Shown piece by piece: positions 16,533 through 60,020 of a DNA stretch of 64,000 nucleotides. Position numbers and translations under genes: made by a program. Source of the stretch: Tichowtungia aerotolerans (GTDB taxonomy: Bacteria > Verrucomicrobiota > Kiritimatiellia > Kiritimatiellales > Tichowtungiaceae); contig NZ_CP047593.1 in the NCBI RefSeq assembly GCF_009905215.1, forward strand, positions 3,042,900-3,106,899, in the 5' to 3' direction. The notes below the pieces were generated by a model, which saw only the letters and a program-made list of their open reading frames with translations, did not search any database and was not told the DNA's origin. How positions within the stretch are numbered: the first letter of the stretch is position 1; every line of letters begins with the position of its first letter.

Positions 16533-17275
16533 TGGGAACTATTCTTCAGCGGAAAGAGGTTGAACGGGTCGCGGTGCTGATCCCCGCTTTCCGGGAAGAA
16601 AACAGTGTCGCGGAAGTTGTGATCGAAGCGCGCCGTTATCTGCCCGATGTCATTGTGGTGGATGACGCTTCCGGAGACGAAACCGCACAGCGCGCGGAGC
16701 AGGCCGGGGCCACCGTAATTCGTCGCGCGATCAATGGCGGAAAGGGCGCTGCGCTGACTGAGGGGTTTCAGTATATTCTGGATCAGGGCTTTGATGCCGT
16801 GATTGCATTGGATGCTGATGGCTTTCATGATCCGAACCAGATTCCAAAGTTTCTGGAAACCTATCATCGAACCCGCATTCCTGTGTTGATCGGGAGCCGG
16901 ATGGCAGAACCTCAAAAGGTCCTGCCGGTACGGCGCTGGAGTATTCGGATGATGAGTTACTGGCTGAACCGGTTAATGCATGTGTATGTGCCGGACCCAC
17001 CCTGCGGGTTCCGTTTTTATCGTTGTGATGTGCTGCCGTTTCTTCTGGAAACCGGTTCATCGCTGCCGGCGGAGTTTGAAACGCTGTTGCATATTGCTTC
17101 GCGCCGGATCCGGGTTGGTTCTGTGCGGATCACAAAAAAACCGCATCGTCATAAAAGCTGGATTTCGCCGTTTCGAGACATCATCCGGTTTTTTAAGGTT
17201 CTGCGGAATTTCTACCGAAAGAAACGGGAAGAAGCAGCCCGGCTTCGCGCTGCTTCCGAAGAAGACAGAATTTAG
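16532..17275 (+). CDS. Family 2 glycosyltransferase (DPM1/polyprenyl-type)
   Basis: A 247-residue GT-A fold enzyme. It shows VLIPAFREENSV near the start, VVDDASGDET at 42-51, NGGKGAALTEGF around 69-80 and the DxD motif ALDADGFHD near 86-94. The C-terminal part is basic and probably membrane-associated, without clear spans. It resembles transferases that move a sugar onto a lipid phosphate or glycolipid; donor and acceptor cannot be read from sequence. It overlaps lipA by one base and ends against the convergent DUF368 gene with a four-base overlap. Confidence 0.82.
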   Translation: MGTILQRKEVERVAVLIPAFREENSVAEVVIEARRYLPDVIVVDDASGDETAQRAEQAGATVIRRAINGGKGAALTEGFQYILDQGFDAVIALDADGFHDPNQIPKFLETYHRTRIPVLIGSRMAEPQKVLPVRRWSIRMMSYWLNRLMHVYVPDPPCGFRFYRCDVLPFLLETGSSLPAEFETLLHIASRRIRVGSVRITKKPHRHKSWISPFRDIIRFFKVLRNFYRKKREEAARLRAASEEDRI

Positions 17276-18180
17276 TTTTTGCGGGCAGCAGCAGTCTCTA
17301 CGAGAATGATAGCAATGATTCCCAGAGCCATCATAAGCAGAGCGCAGGCGGTCGCTCCGCTGAGCTGAGGCAGGCTGTAGGTGTAGCCAACCACCTTTTC
17401 TTTGACCGCGTCGCCATCCTGGAAGATTGTGACAACAGCTTCTTTCCATGGCCACAGCACGGCCAGGGACCCGAAAATAAATCCGGTCAGCAAAGAAACA
17501 GTCTGGTCATGAAACCGCTTGAATACCCATGAGAGAAATCGGGCAAACAGAAGGAGTCCCGTTCCGGCTCCGACGGCAACGGGCAGCAAAACCGCGAGGT
17601 TAAGATCGTTGACCGCTTCGATCATGACCAGTTGGTAATTTCCCATCAGCAGAAGAACATAAGATCCGGAAAGCCCCGGAAGGATCATGCTGCACATCGC
17701 AATCACGCCGCAGAGAATCAGATAGGGGATCGATGCATTTTCTGCCGCCGGCTCCATGAATGCAATCGCTGCCGCCAGAGCTGTTCCGGCGATGAACAGC
17801 AGAACCACCGGCAATGTTACCCGCTTGATCCGTTTGCCGACAAACCAGACGGAGGCCAGAATCAGCCCGAAAAAGAAGGCCCACACTAATACCGCATAAT
17901 GGTCGAAAAGATATTCAAGCAGTCGGGCAATACTGAGAATACTGACGACAATGCCGATTCCTACCGGGATGAGGAATCCCAGATTTGTATGTGTTGCAAA
18001 CTCGCGGAATTTTCCGGAGGCAATCAGTTTCAATGCCGTCAGGTCGAACGATTTGATGGCATAGATGAGAGGTTCGAAAATACCGGTCAGTAAAGCCATC
18101 GTTCCGCCGGAAACTCCGGGAATTACATTTGCTGCGCCCATCAGCATGCCTTTGGCGGTCAGGGAAACTTTTTCTTTCAT
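17272..18180 (-). CDS. DUF368 membrane protein, probable undecaprenyl-phosphate translocase (PopT type)
   Basis: A 302-residue membrane protein with about nine spans. The family marks are two related motifs, NVIPGVSGGTMALLTG near residue 18 and MILPGLSGSYVLLLMG in the second half, consistent with an inverted-repeat carrier. DUF368 proteins have been reported to return undecaprenyl phosphate to the cytoplasmic face. That fits a genome rich in lipid-carrier-dependent polysaccharide genes; the specific assignment is inference from the family. AAAGG precedes ATG 18180. Confidence 0.85.
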   Translation of the reverse strand: MKEKVSLTAKGMLMGAANVIPGVSGGTMALLTGIFEPLIYAIKSFDLTALKLIASGKFREFATHTNLGFLIPVGIGIVVSILSIARLLEYLFDHYAVLVWAFFFGLILASVWFVGKRIKRVTLPVVLLFIAGTALAAAIAFMEPAAENASIPYLILCGVIAMCSMILPGLSGSYVLLLMGNYQLVMIEAVNDLNLAVLLPVAVGAGTGLLLFARFLSWVFKRFHDQTVSLLTGFIFGSLAVLWPWKEAVVTIFQDGDAVKEKVVGYTYSLPQLSGATACALLMMALGIIAIILVETAAARKN

Positions 18181-18781: not shown

Positions 18782-19966
18782 TTAGTCAAGGCGGTCTTCA
18801 AGCGAGCGCGTGTTGCCAAAGTGTAGAGGGTCCAGTTTGGTCCGGTAGATATCTTCAGCGGCATCTCCAGCGAGTGTGGTTCCAAATGTGTCGATGGCGT
18901 CTTTGATGACATCCCGGAAAAAAGCAAATTTTTTCGGAACGGCGTAGACGATGTCGCCCGGTTGGAGTTGAACATCCAAAGATCGCCCGCTGAGGATTTT
19001 GAAAACCCGCGCCTTCTTTGAGTCAAACTGGGACATGTCCATAAGCATGACTTTCGGGCTGACATGATTACCGCGAACGATGAGGATATGACCGTCGGAA
19101 GTATCTTTGTTCATACCGCCGGCCTGAATGATTGCATTCATCAGTGAGAGGCTGGAGTGTGCGAACTGGACGCCTTGAGGGCTGTTGAATGATCCCAAAG
19201 CATATATTTTTCGTTCCAGGGCCGATGGGACGAAAATGATGTCGCCACTCTGGATTTCCAGATTTTGTGTAGCATCGGCTTCATAGACCAGTTTTTCGAA
19301 GTCAACAGGAATGACCTGACCGCGTCGAACCAGCGTGGCATGGGCCAGATCGTGAATGTCTGCAGTGACATTGCGGATGTCACCGAGTTTCATGCCGCCG
19401 GCCTGAGCAAGGGCATCAAGCAGGTGCATTCGGCCGGTGAGTTGGTAAACCTGAGGGGCGTTCATCTGTCCAAGGACCGTGAAGGTCTGGCTTCCAAAAC
19501 GGGCTGGTGTAATGTTGAGAATGGCATAGTTGAGCTCTTTGCTCAGGCGGGAACGCATGTCTTCGGTGAGTTCATCAATGGTCCGGCCTGCTGCCGGAAC
19601 TGTTCCGAGCAGCATATAGGTGATATTGCCGGAAGGATCGATGGGTAATGTACGCTGGTTCTGAGTGTCATCGTAACCGTAGAGAGTGATTTGAAGTTGG
19701 TCTCCGACGCCTAGTCGGTAGGGGCCCGTGTCGCGTTCGGTGAGGAGTTTTGAGTCAACGGTATCTTCCGGGCTTAATTGAACCCAGACTCCGGTTTCCA
19801 TTTCTTCCAGCGTCAGATCTCCGGCTTTAGGGAGTTCCATTACATTGGCCGGAAGCAGTTCTTTATTGTTTTCAAGGCGGGGTTCATTCCTCAGCGATGT
19901 GCAGCCTGCTGCAAGAACGACGAGTGCGATCAGGATGGTGGATGGAATCAAACGAGAGCTCATCAC
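18782..19966 (-). CDS. Polysaccharide export lipoprotein (OPX/Wza-like), locus 1
   Basis: A 394-residue outer-membrane polysaccharide export protein. It has a lipoprotein signal with lipobox LAAGC (Cys22). The Poly_export domain starts around residue 80 with YRLGVGDQLQITLYG and PIDPSGNITYMLLG. Two SLBB-type repeats follow: FTVLGQMNAPQVYQL with DALAQAGG, and IYALGSFNSPQGVQF with NAIIQAGG. The C-terminus could form the outer-membrane helix. GTG 19966 gives a four-base overlap with the preceding gene; ATG 19963 is equally possible. It is last in a run of four genes. Confidence 0.88.
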   Translation of the reverse strand: MMSSRLIPSTILIALVVLAAGCTSLRNEPRLENNKELLPANVMELPKAGDLTLEEMETGVWVQLSPEDTVDSKLLTERDTGPYRLGVGDQLQITLYGYDDTQNQRTLPIDPSGNITYMLLGTVPAAGRTIDELTEDMRSRLSKELNYAILNITPARFGSQTFTVLGQMNAPQVYQLTGRMHLLDALAQAGGMKLGDIRNVTADIHDLAHATLVRRGQVIPVDFEKLVYEADATQNLEIQSGDIIFVPSALERKIYALGSFNSPQGVQFAHSSLSLMNAIIQAGGMNKDTSDGHILIVRGNHVSPKVMLMDMSQFDSKKARVFKILSGRSLDVQLQPGDIVYAVPKKFAFFRDVIKDAIDTFGTTLAGDAAEDIYRTKLDPLHFGNTRSLEDRLD

Positions 19967-21036
19967 GGGGTGGTCTCCTGCGGGAAGAAGTATTTACGAT
20001 TGATATCGGAGGCGAATTCACCGGCGAATGTGGAGACGAACGTGCGGATCATGGATTTTGCGAGGTTGCGGGTGAACAGGAATGATTTTTCAGGTACGTA
20101 TACGATGTCTCCAGCTTCAAGAAACACATCATGTTCTTTGCCAAGCAGAATATCTCTCAGATTGATTTTAAATACTTTCGGAGCGTTCATGGCATCGCGC
20201 AGCAGTACAACACGTTTGATGTCAGCAGAGTCTTCGAGGTAGCCGCCGCTCCCCTGGTCAATTCCGGTAATCAGCTGAACCAGCGTCATGCCGGAGGTGT
20301 ACGGCTGAGACTGCTGGTTGTTGACTTCTCCCATGAGGTATACTTCGCGGCCAAGTGCCGAGGCAATATAGATGACATCTCCGGGGCGAATGTAGATGTC
20401 TTCTGAGAAATCATTTTCTTTCATCAACCGTTCAAAATCGACGGGTATTTTCTCTGTGCCGCGCAGAAGCCAGCTGTCTGTGTAGTTATGGATTTCGATG
20501 GTGTTGTCGTGATAGCGCCCCTGGGCAATTCCTTTGGCTCTGGCAATGGCCTGTCGTACGGTGATCGGGGTTTCAAGAGGATAACTGCTGGCGCTGTCCA
20601 CTTTTCCGAAAATGGAGAACCGGTTGGAGATGAACTGCTTTGGAATAATGGAAACCTGCGGGTTGTTAAACAGGTTTCTCAGTTGCTCTTCCATCTCTTG
20701 GGAGACGTCTTCGGGAGTGCGCCCTTCCGCAGGGATACCAGGCAGAAACATGTAGTAAAGTTTTCCATCCGGAGCAATGGGGATGCCCTGAGCAATGGTG
20801 TCGCGTTGGCCGAAGATGCTGACTTCAACAACATCCCCAACCTGTAATGTTCGGTTTTCAGGTGTGTGGGGAACAAAATACTCCGGCGGAAATTTAGATT
20901 TCTTCTGGGTCAGGGTCAGTTGTTCCAGACTTACTGTTGCGTCCGTTTCCGCGGAGGGTATCTCTGCAAAAAGCACGATTTCGGAAAAAAGGAATAGCAG
21001 AAAAATGAGTTTGCAGAGTTTAAGTCCGTTTTTCAT
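19963..21036 (-). CDS. Polysaccharide export protein (OPX/Wza-like), second copy in locus 1
   Basis: A 357-residue paralogue of its downstream neighbour with the same order of domains. There is a cleavable-type signal at residues 1-24 without a lipobox, then LQVGDVVEVSIFG with IAPDGKLYYMFLPG. SLBB-like repeats are FSIFGKVDSASSYPL and VYLMGEVNNQQSQPY. Because one copy is a lipoprotein and the other is not, they may form a mixed or two-tier export channel. It overlaps the Wzc-like gene by 17 bases, so the genes are translationally coupled. Confidence 0.86.
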   Translation of the reverse strand: MKNGLKLCKLIFLLFLFSEIVLFAEIPSAETDATVSLEQLTLTQKKSKFPPEYFVPHTPENRTLQVGDVVEVSIFGQRDTIAQGIPIAPDGKLYYMFLPGIPAEGRTPEDVSQEMEEQLRNLFNNPQVSIIPKQFISNRFSIFGKVDSASSYPLETPITVRQAIARAKGIAQGRYHDNTIEIHNYTDSWLLRGTEKIPVDFERLMKENDFSEDIYIRPGDVIYIASALGREVYLMGEVNNQQSQPYTSGMTLVQLITGIDQGSGGYLEDSADIKRVVLLRDAMNAPKVFKINLRDILLGKEHDVFLEAGDIVYVPEKSFLFTRNLAKSMIRTFVSTFAGEFASDINRKYFFPQETTP

Positions 21037-23713
21037 GGGTGCCGGGTTCCTCTTCGGACGGTTGATTATGTTTTTTCGATTTATTCATCCACTCAATAAA
21101 AGACAGTTCTTCTTCCTCTGACATTTCTTCAAACCCCGGGGTTTCTTTGATTTCCTCGGGCGCAGTTTTCTGAGAGAAGGAAGGGGCTTCAGGCTCTGTG
21201 GTGTGTTCCTGAGATTCTCCTGGAACGGGCTCCATGAACTCAGGTGCCGATTCCTTGCTTTTTTGGACGCGATCAAACAGTCCCGCAATAAGGCCGCGTT
21301 GATCGGGCAGGCTGCGTATGACACGCTGCTGGCGGACATCTTCCAGATAGTAAGGGTTTACCTTGTTGAAAACCAGAGCCCTCGGCGCCAGTCCGCGGTC
21401 TTCCAGAAACTCCAGCCCTGCATCGACAAGTTTTCGGTCACTGACTGGAGAAGCAATCACATAAATCAGCTCGTCTTGGAATGCGCTTACGGTTCCGGCC
21501 AGAGGGTTGTCCAGTACCGAGGGGATTTCTGTGATGATGAGATCATAGCTGCTGCAGAGCAGATCCCGGAGTCTTGGCATGGATGGTCCTTTGGCGAGAT
21601 CGAGGAGATCGGAGCGCATCTGGTTGACGCGAACCACATCGACACCGTGCACCGTTAAAAGCATATCTGATAATTCTGCCTGGTCACTAAGATAATCTTC
21701 GAGGCCCATTTGAGGCCATGCGGTATCGGCCAGATCCGGCAGGCACGGATTTGATTTTGTGTCAAAGCTGACGAATAGAACTCTGAGATTCAGCGAACTG
21801 TAGTAGCGCGCCAGATTGAACGATATGATGCTTTTTCCCTCGTCATCGAGAGAGCTTGCAAATCCGAACATTTTAGCCTTTTTTCCTCGCAGAAGAACAT
21901 TCAGGCGGTCTGAAATCTCTCGAGTAGAAGGAAGCAGAAGCTCGTACGCATCATATTGTTCAAAATTCGGAATTTCTACAATCGATGCAAGGCAGGGAGC
22001 ATCATACGCTTTTTCCAGCTGGTGCAGTGTGCGGATTTTTCCATCCAGCAGTTCGATCAGAAGAATAATAGCGATGCCGCCGAAAAAACCGAAAACAAAC
22101 CCTGCGATTGGAATCACCCTCCCGAGGAGTGATGATCCACCGGGCTCGGCACTTGTGGCTGAGCTGAACAGACGAAAATCGGACAGGCTTGCGGTCATGG
22201 TTGCATGAGCCGATTCTTCGCTGGCTTTAAGCTGTTTGTAGCTGGCATCCAGAGTAGAGCGTTTTTCGAGCAGCCGGGCATATTCTTTTTCCAGTCCGGG
22301 CAGTTTCTGGAAATGGGCATTCAGTTTGTCGAGATCATTTTGAAGCGCCGCCACCTGTTGAGCGGCCACTTGCTCTTCAGATCTCAATTTCATGAGTTCG
22401 CCTTCGAGCTGTCCTTTGAGCGGGTTGGAAATATATGTCCTTTCGCGCGTTTCATCAAAGGTTCCGCTTTGGAGCATTTTGCGCAGCTCTTCGAGTTCTT
22501 TTTCCTGACGCTGGATTTTCGGGTTGTCGGCTGCGTATTGAATGCGTGCCTGAAGCAGGGCGGCTTCGGCGTTGGAGATTCTTCGTTTGAGCGGGTTGTC
22601 CTCCTGCGCTTCGTCGAGAATCTCATCCGGAAGATCCGCTATCATTTTCTCGTAATTGTTGATTCGGACCAGTAATCCTTCGTGCGCGACTCTGGCGACA
22701 CTTAACCGGTCTGCGGCTGCAGTTTTTGACGAAAAATAGTTCTCGTATTGTGTGTTGAGTTCCAGCAGTTCATTTTTTCGTTGGAAGTTTTCAACGGCCT
22801 CCGTTGCGGCCTTCAGTTCTTTTTCCACGTTTTCTCTTTGCGTATGATATTGTTCGTACGCAGCAGAAGCCAGGTCCCGATAAAATTTTGCATTGCTGCT
22901 GATGATGATTTCGGCAAGTTTGTTGACGGCCTGGATGGCTGTCTTCTCATCAGGCATGTCGTTAACCTGAAGGGTAATGATGTCCGATTTTCTTTGGCTG
23001 TCGTAAGAAATGCTTTGTTCCAGAGGTTCAAATCCTGTGAATTGCTCCAGGGAGGTGATGTTGTCTGGCGACAGCAGCATATCGAGTAATGTGTCTTCAG
23101 AGAGAGGTCGCAGCATGAAGGACGATCCCTGAGAATCGATTTGTTTCTGAGACGGGTTGGTGTAAATGATTTTTGCCTGGGCAGTGTAGGAGAAGCCTCC
23201 CTGAAGATGGCGCGTTGCCGACAGCAGGATCATCATTAAGCCGAAAGCGCAGGCCAGAGCAATCCAGAAGCGACGATAAACACCACGCATAATTTTAACG
23301 ATGTCCAGATTTCGGAAAAAGTCCTGAAGATCATTCTCGCGTCGAATGCTTGTTGCCGGATCTGAGGAGTGGTCTGGAAGTCCTGCCCCCAAAACCGGAG
23401 TATTGGACGGTTTGGCTTTTTTTCGGCCAAGTGTCTGGTGGATGGTGTTCAGGTCTTCGAATTGGTCTTTAATTCGGAATGCCTGTTCCGTGCTGTGCCG
23501 GGGGGAGGCGGAGGATGGAGGAGTGAATGAATTTGTTTCCGATGTTTCATTCTGTTTGACGGCATCTGTTTTCGGAGTGGCGTCCGGTTCCTGTTGAGGC
23601 CGGGAGGGCGATGAGCCGGTTTCCTCCTGAACGGGGGCATCGGACCTTTCTTTTTCAGCCAGTTGCTCACGAGGCTGTCCGAAGGTCAGATTTTCTTCCG
23701 GTTTATCTCTCAT
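21020..23713 (-). CDS. Wzc/GumC-like polysaccharide co-polymerase with degenerate BY-kinase domain
   Basis: An 897-residue inner-membrane protein. Residues 1-145 are a long, disordered, acidic and Pro/Ser-rich N-terminal extension. The first membrane span is at 149-166, the periplasmic Wzz/GNVR part with long coiled coils at about 170-530, and the second span at 533-554. A P-loop domain follows: Walker A at 619-629 (SSLDDEGKSII) keeps Gly-Lys-Ser. Walker A-prime (LFVSFDTKS, 645-653) and Walker B (LIITEIPS, 725-732) lack the usual Asp residues. The tail is acidic and lacks the tyrosine cluster of Wzc. Phosphotransfer is therefore doubtful; ATP binding may persist. Confidence 0.85.
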   Translation of the reverse strand: MRDKPEENLTFGQPREQLAEKERSDAPVQEETGSSPSRPQQEPDATPKTDAVKQNETSETNSFTPPSSASPRHSTEQAFRIKDQFEDLNTIHQTLGRKKAKPSNTPVLGAGLPDHSSDPATSIRRENDLQDFFRNLDIVKIMRGVYRRFWIALACAFGLMMILLSATRHLQGGFSYTAQAKIIYTNPSQKQIDSQGSSFMLRPLSEDTLLDMLLSPDNITSLEQFTGFEPLEQSISYDSQRKSDIITLQVNDMPDEKTAIQAVNKLAEIIISSNAKFYRDLASAAYEQYHTQRENVEKELKAATEAVENFQRKNELLELNTQYENYFSSKTAAADRLSVARVAHEGLLVRINNYEKMIADLPDEILDEAQEDNPLKRRISNAEAALLQARIQYAADNPKIQRQEKELEELRKMLQSGTFDETRERTYISNPLKGQLEGELMKLRSEEQVAAQQVAALQNDLDKLNAHFQKLPGLEKEYARLLEKRSTLDASYKQLKASEESAHATMTASLSDFRLFSSATSAEPGGSSLLGRVIPIAGFVFGFFGGIAIILLIELLDGKIRTLHQLEKAYDAPCLASIVEIPNFEQYDAYELLLPSTREISDRLNVLLRGKKAKMFGFASSLDDEGKSIISFNLARYYSSLNLRVLFVSFDTKSNPCLPDLADTAWPQMGLEDYLSDQAELSDMLLTVHGVDVVRVNQMRSDLLDLAKGPSMPRLRDLLCSSYDLIITEIPSVLDNPLAGTVSAFQDELIYVIASPVSDRKLVDAGLEFLEDRGLAPRALVFNKVNPYYLEDVRQQRVIRSLPDQRGLIAGLFDRVQKSKESAPEFMEPVPGESQEHTTEPEAPSFSQKTAPEEIKETPGFEEMSEEEELSFIEWMNKSKKHNQPSEEEPGTHEKRT

Positions 23714-24027
23714 ATTCTGTTCCGCCTTTATTATACAGTCGTTTGCTTTGCGTTCATACTGTGTCCACTGTATCGTACAGATAAGTAACGGTTATAATCA
23801 CCAATTTATTACGCTTTTTTAATGTAAATGGCAATAGAGGGACGTGTATCTCCTGACGTTCTTTTTTGTTCGCTGGCTCCATGGCCTGGCCCCAAAGAAT
23901 AGGGTTGTACAGCCCCGGACATCTTTTCCAGAAATACAGATAACTCCATAACAGTCATAGTGTGGAGTTTATTAAAGGAAAAAAGATCAGTGATGATTGC
24001 TGCAGTAGGCGTCAGAGGATTTTTGGC
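23714..24027. other. Gap between the ExeA-like ATPase gene and the Wzc-like gene
   Basis: No open frame with coding character is seen. The AT-rich part at 23790-23830 probably holds the promoter of the minus-strand export genes, but no clear -35/-10 pair could be fixed. A short inverted repeat (AACTCCA 23942-23948 / TGGAGTT 23963-23969) has no T-run. Confidence 0.4.
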
Positions 24028-24867
24028 TTATCCAAAATGTTTTTCAATGTCGCGCACAATCATTCGAATCATCTCCGCATCAATTCGATCCTTTTTCATC
24101 AAACATGCCCGGTCAACTGCCAGTTTGCAGACCCGGTTGATCTGGCGAGGGCATCCGCCTGAAAAAGAAAACAGCGGGTCGATACTGTCTTCTTCGAATA
24201 TATCCAGTTTCTCGGCACCGGCAGTTTTCAGACGGTGCTGGAGGTACGGGGCGACTTCTTCGTAGCGCAGGTTTTTCAAATAGCAAAACATGCCCAGTCG
24301 CTGATAAATCTGCGGCAGGGAGCTCAGTTTCTCTTTCAGCTCTGGCTGACCGGAAAGGATGATAGTCAGGAGAGATTCCTGTTGGTTGTAGTTCGTCAGG
24401 CATTTCAGCTCATCAAGACACTCTTTACTCAGGAACTGAGACTCATCGAGGACCAAAATCAGGTGTTTGCCAATGGCGCCCACTTTGTTATGAAGCATGC
24501 CTTCAAACTCTTTGAGCTGGTAATATTTATCATTATTTCCAGGAGCATCGCCTGAGCCGCGAAGCTGCTGGTTGATTTCGGCTAGAATGTGCTCAAACGG
24601 CAGGTGAGCCGTATGGAGCTTGATCGTTGTGTATAGGTCTTTGCGAAGACGGGACCCCAGAACATTTAACACCATGGTTTTTCCGCTGCCGATTTCGCCG
24701 GTCATGGCGCCCATGCCCATCCCGCGGTCGGAAACCAGGTAAAGCAGACGTGCCAGCGCCTCGCCATGCGCTTCGCTTTCATAAAAAAACTGAGCGTCAC
24801 AGTTTGACTCAAATGGCGGTTGTCTCATTTCCCAGAACGATAAATATTCCATAATATGGGCTTTCAC
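24028..24867 (-). CDS. AAA ATPase of the ExeA/GspA type (exosortase/EPS-associated)
   Basis: A 279-residue ATPase beginning in the manner of ExeA: YLSFWEMRQPPFE with YESEAHGEALARLLY. Walker A is GEIGSGKT at 57-64 and Walker B is LILVLDESQF with D141/E142. The sensor region includes IILSGQPELKEKL, and the C-terminal helical lid has GGCPRQINRVCKLAVDRA. This form is common beside PEP-CTERM/exosortase exopolysaccharide loci, where it is annotated as an XrtA-associated ATPase; its role there is not settled. The frame starts at GTG 24867; ATG 24852 is an alternative and neither has a strong ribosome site. Confidence 0.83.
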   Translation of the reverse strand: MKAHIMEYLSFWEMRQPPFESNCDAQFFYESEAHGEALARLLYLVSDRGMGMGAMTGEIGSGKTMVLNVLGSRLRKDLYTTIKLHTAHLPFEHILAEINQQLRGSGDAPGNNDKYYQLKEFEGMLHNKVGAIGKHLILVLDESQFLSKECLDELKCLTNYNQQESLLTIILSGQPELKEKLSSLPQIYQRLGMFCYLKNLRYEEVAPYLQHRLKTAGAEKLDIFEEDSIDPLFSFSGGCPRQINRVCKLAVDRACLMKKDRIDAEMIRMIVRDIEKHFG

Positions 24868-25154: not shown

Positions 25155-25745
25155 TGGAGAAGGGAGTCTCATCAATTTATATTGGTTGTCGGTGTGCTGG
25201 TGGCATGCCCCGTTTGGGCACAAACACCACAGGAAATGATTGAGTCGCATTTCTCGGGGTGACAGGAATCCGTTAAAATGACGACCCATACGGAGGTTTA
25301 TAAGAAAACCCCTCAGGGAAATTTGACACTGCGGGTTTTCCTGAAAGGATCGTCCTACTGTTGTTTTCTTTTATGGCGGCGGTTGGAAGAGAGGCTCTGT
25401 TACTCAGTTGATCAAACAGAGTGGTTGATGGTCTCGCACGGTTACGTAGCAATTACGCCTCAATATCGTATAGGGAAAGGGCTCGGTACTAGGCCGCGTG
25501 AATCCGTAATGGACGCTAAACCCTGCATCCGCTGGGTAAGAAGCCATGCGATTGATTTAGGGATTGATCCGAATCGGTTGATGGTCGGAGGCGGATCGAC
25601 CGGAGGTCTTCTGGCCGCTGCGTGTGCTTCGGTTGCAAAGATCAATCTAAGGATATTGAGACGGTGGACGGCGACCTCATCCGTCTCAAAAGATGGACAC
25701 AAATTGCCCGCGAGAACATCAATGATGTTTGGCTGTGACAAACTC
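25155..25745 (+). pseudogene. Decayed secreted alpha/beta-hydrolase (acetyl-esterase type)
   Basis: Pieces in different frames add up to one esterase. A signal-like stretch (LVVGVLVACPVWAQ) ends in an in-frame TGA at 25260-25262. KMTTHTEVYKKTPQGNLTLRVFL follows from 25275. A frameshift near 25350 then moves the oxyanion segment VVFFYGGGWKRGS to the next frame. The original frame resumes near 25420 with SHGYVAITPQYRI, DAKPCIRWVRSH, LGIDPNRL and the nucleophile elbow GGGSTGGLLAA. The catalytic Asp/His part is missing. The family removes acetyl or related esters from carbohydrates. Confidence 0.75.
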
Positions 25746-25826
25746 TAGTCTGCAAGGTATTCGAACCTTGGAAACAGAATAAAGGCGTATTTCTTCATTC
25801 GAGTCTGTTAAGCACAAACGCGAACG

Positions 25827-39900: not shown

Positions 39901-40839
39901 GTGTCGATTACGTTGAAAGATTTCTGGGAACAGGGCCGCGGTCGGCTTTCGCTCGAACTGGTTACTGGGGAGAATGCTCTCAAAAGACCGGTCGAAGAAA
40001 AGGCGATCAACCGTCCGGGGTTGGCTTTAACCGGATTTTTTCAATACTTTGCGCAGCGCCGCCTTCAGGTGTTCGGTCTGGCTGAATTCACTTATTTGAA
40101 AAGTCTGGATTCAGATGAACGCGTATCCCGGTTGCGCGGGATTTTTGAAAAAAATATTCCCGGCATTGTCATTGCCCGGAACCGCAACCCCTTGCCGGAG
40201 TTTTTGACGTTAGCTGAAGAGTATTCGGTTCCGCTGTTTCGAACGACCATGATTACCAGTCATTTTATCAATGAATCCACTTTGTTGATCGAAGAACTGA
40301 CTGCTCCGCGCGGGCGGGTGCAGGGGACGATGCTGGAAATTATGGGGGTCGGTGTTCTGCTGCAGGGAAAAGCCGGAATTGGAAAAAGCGAAACCGCATT
40401 GTCTCTGATTGAGCGGGGGTACTGTCTGGTGGCGGATGATGTCACTGAGGTGGTACGTGACAGTCGCGAACGGGTTGTGGGGTATGCAAACGAACTGACC
40501 CGCTATCATATGGAAATTCGCGGTGTGGGGATTGTTCATGTGCCCAGCCTGTTTGGTGTGGCGGCGATTCGTCGGGAGAGTGAGCTGGATCTGGTGATTG
40601 AGCTTCATCCGTATCAACATGACCGCGAAGAAGAACGAACCGGAATTAAACCGAGCGAAATTGAGATTTTGGATGCGAAATTTCCATACTATTCTCTTCC
40701 GGTGAGTCCGGGAAGAGATATGGCCAACATTGTGGAAGCCACAGCATTGAACCATAAACTGAAAACGCTTGGGCATGATGCTGCAAAAGAACTGGATGAA
40801 AAAGTTATCGGATCATTTCTTCGCAGGGCAGGTGCGTAA
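39901..40839 (+). CDS. hprK: HPr kinase/phosphorylase
   Basis: Phosphorylates and dephosphorylates the regulatory Ser of HPr. The 312 residues have the N-terminal Hpr_kinase_N domain (about 1-130) and a catalytic domain with the P-loop GKAGIGKS at 156-163. ERGYCLVADDVTEV provides acidic residues, EIRGVGIVHVPSLFG is the HprK signature, and the C-terminal YSLPVSPGRDMANIVEAT follows. The start is GTG 39901 after AAGGAG. HPr follows with a one-base overlap. Confidence 0.95.
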   Translation: MSITLKDFWEQGRGRLSLELVTGENALKRPVEEKAINRPGLALTGFFQYFAQRRLQVFGLAEFTYLKSLDSDERVSRLRGIFEKNIPGIVIARNRNPLPEFLTLAEEYSVPLFRTTMITSHFINESTLLIEELTAPRGRVQGTMLEIMGVGVLLQGKAGIGKSETALSLIERGYCLVADDVTEVVRDSRERVVGYANELTRYHMEIRGVGIVHVPSLFGVAAIRRESELDLVIELHPYQHDREEERTGIKPSEIEILDAKFPYYSLPVSPGRDMANIVEATALNHKLKTLGHDAAKELDEKVIGSFLRRAGA

Positions 40840-41120
40840 TGGGCGATACAAAAAAAATTGTTCGCGAGTTTACGGTGGAGAACCAGTATGGAATTCATGC
40901 CCGCCCGGCCGCATTACTGGTAAAAGCTGCCGGGAAATACTCCTCGGAAATTCTGATTGGTAAAGAAGGATCTGAGGTTTCTGCTAAAAGTATTATGGGG
41001 CTGTTGACTATAGAAGGGCATCAGGGTGCCTGTTTGTCTGTTCAGACCGTTGGCGAAGACGCAGAAGAAGCCATGGCTGAAATCGCAGAGCTGTTCGAAA
41101 ACAAATTTTTTGAGGAGTAG
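40839..41120 (+). CDS. ptsH: HPr phosphocarrier protein
   Basis: A 93-residue HPr. The site phosphorylated by EI is H20 in GIHARPAALLV (His15 of model HPr) and the site used by HprK is S51 in KSIMG (Ser46). Both are present, so the protein can be regulated both ways. It starts within the hprK stop codon and ptsI follows immediately. No EII components are in view. Confidence 0.95.
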   Translation: MGDTKKIVREFTVENQYGIHARPAALLVKAAGKYSSEILIGKEGSEVSAKSIMGLLTIEGHQGACLSVQTVGEDAEEAMAEIAELFENKFFEE

Positions 41121-41121
41121 T

Positions 41122-42900
41122 GTGTCTGTAGAAGCCTCAGAGGGCCTGGAAGAGCTGGTTCTTCAGGGAATCGGAGTTTCTCCCGGTGTAGCTGTGGGCG
41201 ATGCTGTTGTTTTTGCTTCTGAAGGTTTTGCGGTTCCTGAGCGGAATATCAGCGAAAGTGAAATTCCCCTCGAAATTGCGCGGTTTGAGGAGGCCCTGAT
41301 CAAAACCCGGCACCAGATCTCGGAAATCCAGCATAATGTGGAGATAATGCTGGGATCGGAACATGCGGGCATCTTTGATGCGCACTTGCTGGTTGTGGAC
41401 GACCGGTATTTCATCGAAGAGGTCATTCGTAGTCTTCGCGAAAACCGTCGCAATGTTGAATCCATTGTGAATGAAGTGTCCGGTAACTATACCAGTATGC
41501 TGGCAAAGGTTGAGGACGATTATCTTCGCGAACGGGCTGCTGATGTACACGATGTAACCCGGCGTATTGTTAAAAACCTGGCCGGGGAGGGAATGGATCG
41601 ACTGAACTGCCTGGAGCATCCCTGCATTGCTGTGGCTCATGATTTTTCTCCATCGGACACGGCAGGAATGAATCGGGATATCGTGCAGGCGTTGGTGGCG
41701 GATATCGGCAGCTCGACATCGCATGCTGCCATTATGGCTCGGGCTTTGGAGGTTCCTGCGGTCGTGGGTTTGCATGACGTCAGCACACGAATTAACGCCG
41801 GCGATACGGTGTTGGTGGATGGAGCCAAAGGGGTGGTTGTTATTCGTCCATCGTCGGCAACACTGTTGACCTATGCTCAGCGGGCCGAAGAGCTGAAGAT
41901 GATTCTTGGCGAGTTGGAAACGCTTAAGGATGAGCAGTCCGAAACCAAGGATGGATATTGCGTCCCGATCGCAGCCAATATTGAACTGCCGAACGAAATT
42001 GTTTCGATTGATCGTTTCGGTGCTCAGGGTATCGGGTTGTTTCGTACAGAATTTTTATTCCAGAAAAAACAGCTGCCTGATGAAGAAACGCAGATACAGG
42101 TTTACAGCGAGGCGGCAGATCAATGCGGTGGAAATGAAGTAGTCATTCGCACGCTTGATTTAGGGGGGGATAAATGTTCTGCCGGAATTCGGGTTGATCA
42201 GGAAGCCAACCCGTTTCTCGGCTGGAGGGCAATTCGTTTCTGCCTGGGCAGTGTAAAGCTGTTTAAGGTTCAGTTGCGGGCAATCCTGCGTGCAGCAGCG
42301 GGGCGCAATATTGCCATGATGTATCCGATGATCAGCTGCGTGAGTGAGGTGCTGGAGGCGAACACCCTGCTTGAGGAATGTCGGCAGGAGTTGAAATCGG
42401 AAGGACTTCCCTGTGCCGACCGCATTAAAATCGGAGTATTGATTGAGGTGCCTTCGGCAGCATTGACAGTGGATCTTATTGCTCCTCACGTCGACTTCTT
42501 CAGTATCGGAACCAATGACCTTATTCAGTACACCTTGGCGATTGACCGTGTGAATGAAAAAGTGGCTCATCTTTATCGCCCTACACATGCTTCGGTTATT
42601 CGTCTGATACATCAGGTCGTTCAGACAGGACAGCAGTATCGGATTCCGGTAATGGTTTGCGGACAGACGGCAGCATCGCCGGAGTTGGCGCCTTTGCTGA
42701 TCGGGCTGGGAGTCAATCGGCTCAGTATCAGTCCGCCATCGGTTCCAATGATCAAAGACGTTATTCGAAATCTGCATTATTCGGACTGTCGCCGCCTGGC
42801 GGAAGACGCTCTGAGGATGTCCTCTTCTGAGGATATTGCTGCCGAATGCCGTGCCTTGCTCAAAAAAACCTCTCCGGAAATTCTTGAGCTGATCAGCTGA
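41122..42900 (+). CDS. ptsI: PTS phosphoenolpyruvate-protein phosphotransferase (Enzyme I)
   Basis: Transfers phosphate from phosphoenolpyruvate to HPr. The protein has 592 residues from GTG 41122, which has GAGGAG upstream and lies two bases after the ptsH stop. The N-terminal domain includes LQGIGVSPGVAVGDAV, and the active-site His201 is in IGSSTSHAAIMARAL. The PEP-binding barrel has GIGLFRTEFLF, VIRTLDLGGDK, RAIRFCL, MYPMIS and FSIGTNDLIQYTLAIDR. Cys in MVCGQTAASPEL is the usual conserved residue. Confidence 0.95.
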   Translation: MSVEASEGLEELVLQGIGVSPGVAVGDAVVFASEGFAVPERNISESEIPLEIARFEEALIKTRHQISEIQHNVEIMLGSEHAGIFDAHLLVVDDRYFIEEVIRSLRENRRNVESIVNEVSGNYTSMLAKVEDDYLRERAADVHDVTRRIVKNLAGEGMDRLNCLEHPCIAVAHDFSPSDTAGMNRDIVQALVADIGSSTSHAAIMARALEVPAVVGLHDVSTRINAGDTVLVDGAKGVVVIRPSSATLLTYAQRAEELKMILGELETLKDEQSETKDGYCVPIAANIELPNEIVSIDRFGAQGIGLFRTEFLFQKKQLPDEETQIQVYSEAADQCGGNEVVIRTLDLGGDKCSAGIRVDQEANPFLGWRAIRFCLGSVKLFKVQLRAILRAAAGRNIAMMYPMISCVSEVLEANTLLEECRQELKSEGLPCADRIKIGVLIEVPSAALTVDLIAPHVDFFSIGTNDLIQYTLAIDRVNEKVAHLYRPTHASVIRLIHQVVQTGQQYRIPVMVCGQTAASPELAPLLIGLGVNRLSISPPSVPMIKDVIRNLHYSDCRRLAEDALRMSSSEDIAAECRALLKKTSPEILELIS

Positions 42901-44299: not shown

Positions 44300-45604
44300 C
44301 TTATGTTGGCTCTTCCCCAAAGACGGGGGCAAGGGCGAATTTTTATTAACCACACATCACAATTACTCTCAATCTGTAATTGTCGAAATTCCTGAAGCCA
44401 TAGGCTCTTCTCTGAATCAGCTCCATCTTGGTATGGAAGCCTTCTGTAATGCCGTTGTTGCGGGTGAACCTCCACATCCGGGCGATCTCATCGCGCCAGG
44501 AACTCAATGTGGCCCCCAGCGTGCGCAACGGCTCGAATGGACTGTTGCGCAGCTGATCGATCCAGTACAGCAGGCGTGAGATTAGCGGCCGGCAATCCTT
44601 TTGTGTTCGATGCTTCTGGTTAAGCAGTTCGCATAGCTCCTCTTTGGCCTTGTACACCATACCAATCGCTGGGTTCTGCTCAAAATATCGCTCCAGACGG
44701 GCCTGTTGGTCTGGATGCAGATTGCCGCTTTTTCGGCGCATCAGCGATAGCAGCCCACGGTTTTTACGCCCTACAGGGTCAAGTAGCTTCCATGTGTCGA
44801 GGAAATGGCGGATGACGGTGCGCACGACATGGAACCGGTCGCTTACGATCAGGGCATTCGGAAAGTATTGCTTTACCAAGGCCCGGTAGCTTGAAGACAG
44901 ATCGATGCAGACCACCTGAACCCGTTCCCGGCCTTTCATTCGCATCAGAGCGCTATGCAGGGAGTGCTCCGATCGTCCCTTGGCTACCTCGAATATCCGA
45001 TGTTTCTGCAGGTCACAGAAGGTCGTTGCGTATCCCTGCTTCTTGGTGAAGAAGTGTTCATCAATACCCAGAACCGTCGGGCACAACCGGCTGGAAAACA
45101 TCTTCTCTTTAAGCTCCAGATGGTCATGAAACCACCGCTCGACAGTAGCGGATCCGATCTTTCGCCGACGATGCAGCTGTTGCTGGCTGATGCCGTCACG
45201 GTGATCCATAAAGATCTCCTGACGGAACATCTCGGTACTGCGCCGGTACGGCAGCAGGCCGGGCACTCGGGCCCTAAAATAGCGTCTGCAGTCTTCGCAG
45301 CGATATTTACGCAGCGTCAAGTACAGCCAGGTGTTTTTCGTTCCAATGCTTTCATGACGCAGCTTCCGTACAAATCGATCCTTAGTGCGCAGCTGCTCTG
45401 AACTGCATTGCGGACAGGCCACCGGGCCAACGTACTCGGCATGAATCATCACGCCACCGTGGCGGACTACGGAATGAACCTTGATGCCGGGGCCGACCAG
45501 GTCTATCTTCTCTTGGGGCATAGCGATCTCCTTTTTATTCCAACTGCTACCTTAGCAGTCAGGGATCGCCCTTGCCCCCGTCTTTGAGGAAGAGCCCTTA
45601 TGTT
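44300..45604. mobile_element. ISL3-family insertion sequence, complete, with 8-bp target duplication
   Basis: The element spans 44308-45596 (1289 bp). The ends are 31-bp inverted repeats starting GGCTCTTCC and differing at one base (CCCC against CCTC). Both sides carry the 8-bp duplication CTTATGTT (44300-44307 and 45597-45604), identical, so the insertion is recent and the unit intact. It holds a single transposase gene on the minus strand. The 31-bp ends, 8-bp duplication and transposase type all fit ISL3. Confidence 0.93.
44346..45521 (-). CDS. ISL3-family transposase
   Basis: A 391-residue DDE transposase. The N-terminal zinc finger is CPQCSSEQ with CEDCRRYF. The helix-turn-helix region (SQQQLHRRRKIGSATVERW) is followed by the catalytic Asp in VLGIDEHFF, a second in VCIDLSSSY and the final Glu in GITEGFHTKMELIQRRAYGFRNF. 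The frame is uninterrupted, so it is probably active. Purine-rich AGGAG is present before ATG 45521. Confidence 0.93.
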   Translation of the reverse strand: MPQEKIDLVGPGIKVHSVVRHGGVMIHAEYVGPVACPQCSSEQLRTKDRFVRKLRHESIGTKNTWLYLTLRKYRCEDCRRYFRARVPGLLPYRRSTEMFRQEIFMDHRDGISQQQLHRRRKIGSATVERWFHDHLELKEKMFSSRLCPTVLGIDEHFFTKKQGYATTFCDLQKHRIFEVAKGRSEHSLHSALMRMKGRERVQVVCIDLSSSYRALVKQYFPNALIVSDRFHVVRTVIRHFLDTWKLLDPVGRKNRGLLSLMRRKSGNLHPDQQARLERYFEQNPAIGMVYKAKEELCELLNQKHRTQKDCRPLISRLLYWIDQLRNSPFEPLRTLGATLSSWRDEIARMWRFTRNNGITEGFHTKMELIQRRAYGFRNFDNYRLRVIVMCG

Positions 45605-57938: not shown

Positions 57939-57977
57939 GCCTGTTTGAATATCGTGGCTCAAATCAGGGAATGGATT

Positions 57978-60020
57978 ATGAACAACCCGGCAACTGAAAA
58001 AACGACCCGTCCATTGCGGGACCTTGTCGAAACGCTTTTCAGGCACAAACGAAAAGCGGCCGCTTTTCTCTTTGCTGTGGTGTTTTCAGCTCTGATTGTT
58101 CTGGCGTTTACGCCGGTCACCTATACATCGACATCCAAGTTGATCGTCCATCGAGGACGTGAAAGCGTTTTTGTGGATCCGTCGGCGGGTGGAGCCACGC
58201 TGCCTCTCTATAAAGAATGGGAGAGTGAAATCAATACGGAGCTGGAGATTTTGAACAGTCGGGAGCTGGTTGCTCAGGTCGTTGAGTCAATGGGCGCTTC
58301 CGTTTTCCTGAAGGAGGGGCCTCCGGATGAAACCGGGCGGCTGGGTCCGATTCGGAAACTGTTCAATCCGCTCCGCCTTTTCTTCCGAAAAATTACGCAG
58401 GCTCTGGCACCGGGCGGTGTGTCGGAAAAAAGCGGAGGGCGTCTGAAGCAGGTAAACAAAGCCATTCAGATTGTCGAAAAAGGTCTGGCGATTGGTGTTC
58501 GTCCGAAAAGCGACATCATCACGGTTTCGTATACCGCGAAAGATCCGGAGATCGCTCGGCGGGTGGTGGCCGAACTGATCAGCAATTATCTCGAACGACG
58601 GATTGACCTGCATCAGATTCCGGGGGGATATCAGTTCTTCTCCCAGCAGACGGAACTGCTTCGGGAGGAGCTGGAGGACATTGCCGCTCGGATTCTGACC
58701 GTAAAAAAAGAGGGCAATATTGATTCCGTCACAGACGAACATGCTGTTGTGCAGACTGCGATTGAAGAAATGCAGATATCCCGGCTGCAGGTGCAGTCCG
58801 AACTCGCCGCCGCCAGTGCCCGGGTTGACTCAATCCGTTCCATGTTGGCTCAAGACCCCTCAGACAGTGCCGGTCCAAAAAACAACGCGATTCTTGATCC
58901 GGTTGAATATAAAAAACTTCAGGCAACTTTGCGGCTGGAGGAAGCCTCTCTCGCGGCACTGATTGCTCAAAACCAGGAGGTCGGCAGTCAGTTGGATCAG
59001 TTGCGGACGAATCTCCGGACCATTGAAAAGAACGAACCGACGATTCGCCGGCTGCAGCGCGAACAGGAACTGCTCGAAGAAAAATATCGCAAGTATTCAG
59101 AGAACCGCGAGCAGGCTCGGATCAATCAGGAGCTGGAAACCAAAAAGATTTCCAATGTAACGATTGTTCAGCATGCGACTTTGCCGGAAGAGTCCAACCC
59201 ATCTGGAAAAATGATCAAACTTGCGGCGGCTCTTTTCCTTGGGTTGTTTGGCGCAGTCGGTATTGCGTTCGGTGTGGACTTTATCGATCCGAGTCTGCAT
59301 TCGGAAGCGGATGTCACGGCTCATGTGAACCGCAAGACACTGATTGAGCTGCCTCTTCTTCGGGGAAAACAGCTCGATCCGGCCTTCAGGCCTCCGCTCC
59401 GGAAGGAGCGTAAGGCCCGCTGGATTCTTCACTCCGGTAAATATGCTGTTGTCGATGGGGACAGTTGTTTTCAGGAGCTGTGTCTGCGTTTTCTGACGGA
59501 AAAACCGCCGGAAGGAAATTCCCCGCTGGTGATTGGGTTAACCAGCAGTGTCGGAGGGGAGGGGGTCAGTACGGTGGCCGGGAAGCTGGCTGCTGTGTTC
59601 TCTCGAGATGACCGCTTTACCAAAGTTCTGCTGCTGGATGCAAACCTCACGGAGCACTCCGTTCAGTTGATCCGCAAGCGCACAGATCTACCGTTTTCCT
59701 ATCATAAAATTCGGAATGAGGATGGAGATGATGATTTGTCGGTTAATGCTTCAACGATTACCCGCTACCTCGAACAGGTTCGGCGTGAATCATACGATGT
59801 GGTCATCATTGATATTCCTCCGATGGAGGAGGGAAACTATGCCGTTCGTGTTGCTGCGCAAACCGACCGGATCGGTCTTGTTGTCGACTGCGGTCGGACT
59901 CCGTGGCGTACGGTGAAACGTTCGGCCGGTCTGCTGGAAGATATCGGCGCAGAACTGTGCGGCATCATTTTGAACCGGCAGCAGTATACCATGCCTAAAT
60001 GGCTTTACAGGAAACTTTAA
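57978..60020 (+). CDS. Wzc/GumC-like polysaccharide co-polymerase with defective P-loop
   Basis: A 680-residue inner-membrane protein. The Wzz domain starts with the first membrane span at 28-46; the periplasmic region carries long coiled coils (220-400), and the second span is at 412-434. The C-terminal ATPase domain keeps Walker A-prime LLLDANLTE (551-559) and Walker B VVIIDIPPMEEG (608-619). But the Walker A SSVGGEGVST has Val530 where the family has the essential Lys. There is no C-terminal tyrosine cluster. ATG 57978 with AGGGA is preferred to TTG 57945. Confidence 0.87.
   Translation: MNNPATEKTTRPLRDLVETLFRHKRKAAAFLFAVVFSALIVLAFTPVTYTSTSKLIVHRGRESVFVDPSAGGATLPLYKEWESEINTELEILNSRELVAQVVESMGASVFLKEGPPDETGRLGPIRKLFNPLRLFFRKITQALAPGGVSEKSGGRLKQVNKAIQIVEKGLAIGVRPKSDIITVSYTAKDPEIARRVVAELISNYLERRIDLHQIPGGYQFFSQQTELLREELEDIAARILTVKKEGNIDSVTDEHAVVQTAIEEMQISRLQVQSELAAASARVDSIRSMLAQDPSDSAGPKNNAILDPVEYKKLQATLRLEEASLAALIAQNQEVGSQLDQLRTNLRTIEKNEPTIRRLQREQELLEEKYRKYSENREQARINQELETKKISNVTIVQHATLPEESNPSGKMIKLAAALFLGLFGAVGIAFGVDFIDPSLHSEADVTAHVNRKTLIELPLLRGKQLDPAFRPPLRKERKARWILHSGKYAVVDGDSCFQELCLRFLTEKPPEGNSPLVIGLTSSVGGEGVSTVAGKLAAVFSRDDRFTKVLLLDANLTEHSVQLIRKRTDLPFSYHKIRNEDGDDDLSVNASTITRYLEQVRRESYDVVIIDIPPMEEGNYAVRVAAQTDRIGLVVDCGRTPWRTVKRSAGLLEDIGAELCGIILNRQQYTMPKWLYRKL

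Follow-up and report, generated by a model that had tools for sequence, protein, structure and literature searches.

In the polysaccharide co-polymerase Wzc, the octamer comes apart when the tail is autophosphorylated, and its restoration requires a phosphatase (PMC8285477; also PMC11986026); the K540M form is a stable octamer (PMC8285477). EcpK and HfsB have been proposed to act as scaffolds that replace this phosphorylation cycle (PMC12004946), and the same paper names, after Cuthbertson et al., the fused pseudokinase co-polymerases SMc01795, BCETI_6000729, Mlr8439 and VV1_2305. We have analysed a 64,000-nucleotide stretch of the Tichowtungia aerotolerans genome (contig NZ_CP047593.1, positions 3,042,900 to 3,106,899; the window), in which an open frame of 897 codons on the reverse strand (21020–23713), read directly, encodes a Wzc-type polysaccharide co-polymerase with a pseudokinase domain of the bacterial tyrosine kinase (BY-kinase) family.

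From the residues, conservation, fold and gene order observed for this co-polymerase we infer, with a probability of roughly 0.7, that it is a conserved BY pseudokinase of the polysaccharide co-polymerase 2a (PCP-2a) class, which would bind nucleotide without phosphorylating tyrosine and act as a scaffold to two outer-membrane polysaccharide export (OPX) proteins, its oligomer being cycled, on the mechanism we favour, by a neighbouring ATPase in place of phosphorylation.

Catalytic motifs and fold of the co-polymerase

A profile alignment with CapAB and Wzc places S649 in the column of the first Walker A' aspartate, which is catalytic in the solved BY-kinases, and aligns D651 with the second A' aspartate and E729 with that of Walker B (Table 1); the P-loop lysine can be read directly in residues 619–628. 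The initial annotation, made from the letters of the window, had reported the P-loop lysine as present (DEGKS), the first A' aspartate as serine (FVSFDTKS) and the Walker B aspartate as glutamate (ITEIP), and the alignment bears it out on each of these residues. It had not listed two further losses. The arginine of the A' motif DxDxR is replaced by lysine, and ExxRxxR, the BY-kinase oligomerisation motif, is not formed in the region where intact kinases carry it (LPSTREISDRLN). An acidic tail in place of the tyrosine cluster and some 145 extra residues ahead of the first span had also been described, and both are found here: there is no tyrosine in the last 60 residues, the 103-residue stretch that follows PYYLEDVR contains 23 Asp/Glu and 13 Lys/Arg and again no Tyr, and the first long helix of a weak full-length model spans residues 138–170. 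The protein thus has the Walker A lysine of an active BY-kinase and lacks DxDxR, the Walker B aspartate, the tyrosine cluster and ExxRxxR. It resembles BY pseudokinases of the EcpK type in combining the BY-kinase fold with loss of the catalytic residues and the tyrosine tail, and departs from them in that not all of its Walker motifs are absent. Judged by the lost catalytic aspartate and tyrosine tail, the co-polymerase most likely lacks tyrosine kinase activity.

Residues 230–583 are nearest to TIGR03007 (the XrtA chain-length family; 103.5 bits, cut-off 278.85) and residues 603–786 to TIGR01007 (the BY-kinase family; 50.6 bits, below the curated cut-off), both in NCBIfam. A Pfam scan of the protein returned no family at an E-value of 0.001, Wzz included, and a Wzz search of the genome matched only its other two Wzc proteins. 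The predicted layout is that of a PCP-2a protein, with two spans (predicted helices in the weak full-length model) flanking a periplasmic helical domain and a cytoplasmic kinase-like domain after them. Confidence in the full-length model is low (predicted local distance difference test, pLDDT, 59.5; predicted template modelling score, pTM, 0.34), with residues 1–140 and most of the tail below a pLDDT of 50; its best Foldseek matches are likewise Wzc, at low template modelling (TM) scores. Because this model is poor, we base our claims about the fold of the kinase-like part on a separate AlphaFold2 model, that of residues 556–804 (pLDDT 70.1, pTM 0.74). The best Foldseek match of that domain model is Wzc K540M (E 5.1e-12, TM-score 0.68 by query, root-mean-square deviation 5.3), itself an unphosphorylated octamer, which supports the pseudokinase scaffold that we propose. 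The family profile also matches solved BY-kinases, namely CapAB (4jmp, E 9.9e-15), Wzc (7nhr, E 3.7e-12) and chain 3bfv. PslE is a weak match to the same profile (E 2.8e-05); a search of one open paper on Psl assembly found no passage on a kinase or Walker motifs.

Conservation, distant relatives and the N-terminal motif

A protein search over 58 relatives gave matches in 27 genomes, of which those scoring at least 579 bits were taken as orthologues, all other rows falling below 37 bits. Orthologues are present in nine genomes: that of T. aerotolerans, seven others of the genus and one of the order. EGKS and the second A' aspartate are kept in all nine, the first A' aspartate is Ser, Gly or Asn in every case, the Walker B residue is Glu in eight (Asp in L017), and none has the tyrosine cluster. 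Since the orthologues share this motif state, sequencing error can be dismissed as its cause. In seven of the nine, a long acidic tail of 96–128 residues without tyrosine follows PYYxxDVR; L020 and L021 instead end in short basic tails (35 and 25 residues, respectively), each containing a single tyrosine. Mean pairwise identity among the eight genus orthologues is 52.7% for the N-terminus (1–145), 71.4% for residues 146–560, 76.8% for residues 561–795 and 40.3% for the tail. Seven genomes encode an intact Wzc as well as this protein; in these, mean identity is 75.8% for the pseudokinase domain and 70.3% for the co-polymerase part of the same chain, and the corresponding figures for the intact Wzc are 92.5% (kinase domain) and 77.0%. 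The dead domain therefore looks to be kept by selection rather than decaying, though more loosely than its live counterpart.

Across 288 genomes of the phylum, a profile search found relatives in 12 at an E-value of 1e-20, five in the genus and seven outside it. In three distant proteins (L093, L094 and L095; 29–31% identity) a P-loop (EGKS or DGKS) and the first A' aspartate (DFD; L093 holds the full DFDSR) are retained, and the Walker B residue is already glutamate, with no tyrosine cluster; the changes in the tail and in Walker B therefore look older than the loss of the A' aspartate. L096 has a stop in frame and keeps GKS, and L099 has SGKT at the aligned P-loop place. In a tree of 45 of the 54 rows, 15 of the 16 relatives (nine orthologues and L093–L099) group in a single clade (support 100/99) that excludes every intact kinase. 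The exception is L099, which, like the second degenerate Wzc of the window, is on a long branch of uncertain placement.

The N-terminal extension contains a conserved motif, FRIKDQF, for which we derived the pattern [FY]x[VI][RK][DE]Q[FLM] from the same sequences on which it was scored. It occurs in the N-terminus of 12 of the 16 relatives (the nine orthologues and L093–L095), and was not found in L096–L099, although the open piece of L096 starts only within the periplasmic part. The remaining Wzc-like proteins of the 54-row set all lack it; among the surrounding open frames of at least 60 codons (364,441 residues) it matched the co-polymerase family only; and shuffling each N-terminus 2000 times reproduced it in no more than 0.05% of trials.

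The gene unit and the other kinases of the genome

The co-polymerase gene overlaps that of OPX1, which in turn overlaps that of OPX2, and an ExeA/GspA-like AAA ATPase is encoded next to them. The order ATPase, then co-polymerase–OPX1–OPX2, recurs in L043, L045, L046, L047 and L048 and in the distant L093, L094 and L095; OPX2 is split over two frames in L043 and only partly reached by the L093–L095 stretches. The L044 and L049 stretches end inside the unit and L096 shows the co-polymerase and OPX1 only; the comparison of neighbours covered L043–L049 and L093–L096. Two extra genes stand between ATPase and co-polymerase in L043, L045, L046 and L047, one for a PF24793 GINT1_N-like protein (L045, L046) and the other for a glycosyltransferase-like protein that no Pfam family matches. 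In the window only a recognisable 3' end is left of the latter gene, and L048 has a 350-base gap in place of the extra genes, with a non-significant glycosyltransferase match. A distant paralogue (29%) of the lost glycosyltransferase-like protein is encoded at L131:6497–7447 (−), divergently from a second ATPase gene described below. The DUF368 gene is not beside the unit in L043–L049 and so is probably not part of it.

The unit ATPase is 77–89% identical within the genus, the co-polymerase 57–63%, and both Walker motifs of the ATPase are intact at 11 of 11 loci (eight in the genus, with L093, L094 and L095; frames picked by similarity alone). Two TIGR03015 paralogues exist in the genus, neither reaching the family cut-off. 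The unit paralogue (172–179 bits) is found in all eight genus genomes with the co-polymerase and in none of the six without it. The second (285–304 bits) is found in 12 of the 14, the same 12 that hold an exosortase; in the T. aerotolerans genome, at L131:7683–9073 (+), it adjoins a GspB-like protein, so labelled from its N-terminus, which starts MSLIQEALKRKSEEE (MSLIQEALKRKSEEEREK). Exosortase was considered as a specific partner of the unit and rejected because, besides the eight genomes with the unit, four of the six without it also have one. The unit itself contains no exosortase, the only one found in the genome lying about 30 kb off, and is not an XrtA system by score (co-polymerase as given above; ATPase in Table 1). 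At L051:6717–8437 (+), about 11 kb before the window, an exosortase (TIGR02602, 158 bits) and an EpsI-like gene lie near glycosyltransferase genes. Adjoining the ATPase gene is a short alpha/beta-hydrolase piece (25278–25748, +; 156 amino acids, PF20434), probably a gene fragment. Farther along the window are HPr kinase/phosphorylase and PtsI genes (39901–42900, +), downstream of a Kdo/Lpt gene run, and an ISL3-type transposase gene (44346–45521, −).

Table 1. Features of the co-polymerase locus and related genes. Positions are those of the window; residue numbers are those of the co-polymerase.
Feature	Position	Strand	Basis or remark
Co-polymerase fused to BY pseudokinase domain, 897 amino acids	21020..23713	-	Open frame; TIGR03007 and TIGR01007 matches
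Cytoplasmic N-terminal extension (residues 1-145), predicted to be disordered	23279..23713	-	pLDDT <50 for 1-140, weak model
FRIKDQF, residues 79-85, conserved N-terminal motif	23459..23479	-	Pattern in 12/16 relatives
Two-span co-polymerase part with predicted periplasmic helical domain, residues 146-560	22034..23278	-	Model helices and strands; Foldseek to Wzc
BY pseudokinase domain with linker, residues 561-795	21329..22033	-	Domain model, Foldseek
PSTREISDRLN where BY-kinases carry ExxRxxR; motif not formed	21899..21931	-	Sequence comparison
Walker A ASSLDDEGKS, residues 619-628, kept	21830..21859	-	E625, G626, K627 and S628 invariant 9/9
Walker A' VLFVSFDTKS, residues 645-654; first Asp lost (S649), second kept (D651)	21752..21781	-	Profile alignment
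Walker B YDLIITEIP, residues 723-731; Asp to Glu (E729)	21521..21547	-	Glu in 8/9, Asp in L017
Y788-Y789, two tyrosines at the tail base	21347..21352	-	Invariant 9/9
Acidic tail in place of the tyrosine cluster	21023..21328	-	pLDDT <50 for 777-865 and 879-897
ExeA/GspA-like AAA ATPase	24028..24867	-	Walker A GEIGSGKT and Walker B LDESQ intact; TIGR03015-like, 173.4 bits (cut-off 324.5)
OPX1, SLBB polysaccharide export protein, overlapping the co-polymerase gene	19963..21036	-	Nearest NCBIfam TIGR03027, below cut-off
OPX2, second SLBB export protein, lipobox-like start	18782..19966	-	Family scan; 4-base overlap with OPX1
DUF368 gene, undecaprenyl-phosphate translocase-like, adjoining the unit	17272..18180	-	Family scan
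Glycosyltransferase-like gene remnant	23706..23861	-	tblastn 7.4e-07; stop inside match
Second, differently degenerate Wzc-like protein	57945..60020	+	P-loop Lys to Val

A search of the genome gave seven TIGR01007 matches: the co-polymerase, the second degenerate Wzc, an intact Wzc and four Mrp/ParA-type ATPases. The intact Wzc (G000:C1:3126919-3129039; 706 amino acids; 163.3 bits, over the cut-off) lies about 60 kb away and carries GGAGEGKSTT, VDADLRRP, IFDTPP and a tyrosine-rich tail (YYYYYHSYYSNYYYYR). The genome has four OPX genes, two in the co-polymerase unit and one beside each of the other Wzc genes. Matches above the TIGR01007 cut-off occur in 12 of the 14 genus genomes, including seven of the eight with the pseudokinase; the exceptions are G005, which has the pseudokinase only in a genome 87% complete, and G012, just under the cut-off at 101.9 bits. 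The second degenerate Wzc has EGVS and LDANLT, keeps the Walker B DIPP and has no tyrosine cluster, so that two loci of the window have indeed lost different kinase residues, as first noted; they do not group on the tree, although the second is on a long branch. L023, from another genus genome, carries GVT instead of GKT. Stand-alone kinase-like proteins of 232 and 234 amino acids occur in L071 (G010) and L082 (G007), in genomes without the co-polymerase; they keep EGKS, have VVFDGDS or VIFDGDS at Walker B and carry few tail tyrosines.

The initial annotation had gone on to suggest a lineage whose polysaccharide export no longer depends on tyrosine phosphorylation by Wzc, which the absence of both an intact BY-kinase and a Wzb phosphatase would support and a separate Wze/CapB-type partner kinase would refute. 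A kinase-free lineage must be rejected because an intact Wzc is present in this genome and in the genus; for the 21020–23713 locus itself a kinase-free mode is still what its motifs suggest. No stand-alone partner kinase is among the seven TIGR01007 matches, the intact kinase being a fused Wzc with its own OPX. Nor is the phosphatase side of that test borne out, as three proteins of the low-molecular-weight phosphatase family are encoded in the genome, though two are nearest to arsenate reductase models, under the cut-offs (155 of 174.3 bits and 85 of 215 bits), the latter scoring 53.4 of 243 bits with the NCBIfam Wzb model; the third has the loop CTANRTRS. For the PHP phosphatase CpsB/CapC there was one match in the genome, at 19.3 bits and under the 27-bit cut-off.

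A proposed phosphorylation-free scaffold, its alternatives and known systems

We propose that the pseudokinase domain most likely still binds nucleotide and that the co-polymerase may couple inner-membrane polymerisation to its two dedicated OPX proteins. The ExeA-like ATPase would dock on the FRIKDQF-type motif and, by analogy with secretin assembly by GspA/GspB, might carry out the assembly task that falls to phosphorylation in Wzc. A broader version, in which a Verrucomicrobiota co-polymerase family swapped tyrosine phosphorylation for an ExeA-like ATPase cycle and uses its pseudokinase as a nucleotide-sensing scaffold, is offered tentatively and is more doubtful than probable. Several observations weigh against the proposal. 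At the tail base two tyrosines, Y788 and Y789, likewise not listed in the initial annotation, are invariant in all nine orthologues; conservation of the pseudokinase domain falls clearly short of that of the intact kinase domain; and among the distant relatives the P-loop is absent from L097 and L098 and the N-terminal motif from L097–L099. The Walker B aspartate of L017 and the full DxDxR of L093 mean that weak activity is possible, and the co-occurrence of ATPase and co-polymerase is partly linkage because the genes are adjacent in most genomes.

The two invariant tyrosines, and the presence of a TIGR01007 match over the cut-off in most genus genomes with the pseudokinase, would fit phosphorylation of the co-polymerase in trans by the intact Wzc, or control of its oligomer by that protein, so that dependence on a kinase persists. 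We consider this unlikely: there is no tyrosine cluster to modify, mixed rings with the intact Wzc look improbable because ExxRxxR is missing, the intact Wzc has its own OPX, EcpK of Myxococcus xanthus is argued to be independent of active kinases (PMC12004946), and no intact kinase was detected in the incomplete G005 genome. Also improbable is a domain that remains an ATPase or kinase of unusual chemistry, in which the Walker B glutamate and Asp651 suffice for Mg-ATP hydrolysis and some other residue is the substrate. The invariant P-loop and second A' aspartate, the conservative nature of the Asp to Glu change and the DFDSR of L093 speak for it, but the first A' aspartate is replaced in every orthologue, and neither the tyrosine cluster nor ExxRxxR is present. 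Simple decay of the gene once this genome had lost a polysaccharide pathway is hardly credible; the glycosyltransferase remnant and the variable tail and N-terminus point that way, but the frame is open, the overlapping gene order is kept, and seven further genus orthologues show the same motif pattern with a domain conserved like the rest.

A literature search for polysaccharide copolymerases with a degenerate Walker A or tyrosine kinase found nothing, and one on Tichowtungia and exopolysaccharide returned cultivation work only. The fused kind of BY pseudokinase co-polymerase is nonetheless already proposed in print, in PMC12004946, from which the following comparisons with EcpK, HfsB and the fused examples are drawn. 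EcpK/EpsV of M. xanthus and HfsB/HfsA of Caulobacter likewise involve a kinase-like fold that has lost the catalytic residues and the tyrosine tail, with a phosphorylation-free scaffold proposed. However, EcpK and HfsB are stand-alone proteins whereas ours is fused, EcpK has no Walker motif whereas ours retains the P-loop, and the C-terminus of EcpK is a basic helix in place of an acidic tail. SMc01795, BCETI_6000729, Mlr8439 and VV1_2305 are named there as joining a transmembrane and periplasmic part to an inactive kinase domain in one chain; sections 3, 5, 9 and 10 of that paper mention no ATPase, paired OPX or N-terminal motif. Wzc and Etk of Escherichia coli and CapAB of Staphylococcus share the fold and topology, as the matches to 4jmp, 3bfv and 7nhr indicate, but carry the catalytic aspartate, ExxRxxR and tyrosine tail that our protein does not.

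TIGR03007, TIGR03015 and TIGR03027, models for XrtA/PEP-CTERM loci, are those nearest to our co-polymerase, ATPase and OPX1, all below their cut-offs, and such loci differ from this unit, which has no exosortase. The GspA/ExeA–GspB pair similarly places an AAA ATPase gene next to that of an inner-membrane protein whose cytoplasmic N-terminus is short (PMC9239104); that pair serves a secretin, whereas here the partner is a co-polymerase and the channel an OPX protein, so the likeness is one of analogy only. The retained P-loop, the syntenic ATPase unit and the N-terminal motif are what distinguish the T. aerotolerans protein. A natural family with the fold and P-loop but short of one catalytic aspartate and of the substrate tyrosines, sharing a cell with an intact Wzc, makes the purpose of the phosphorylation cycle directly testable, and its conserved ATPase neighbour and N-terminal motif provide a concrete, testable alternative to the phosphorylation cycle.

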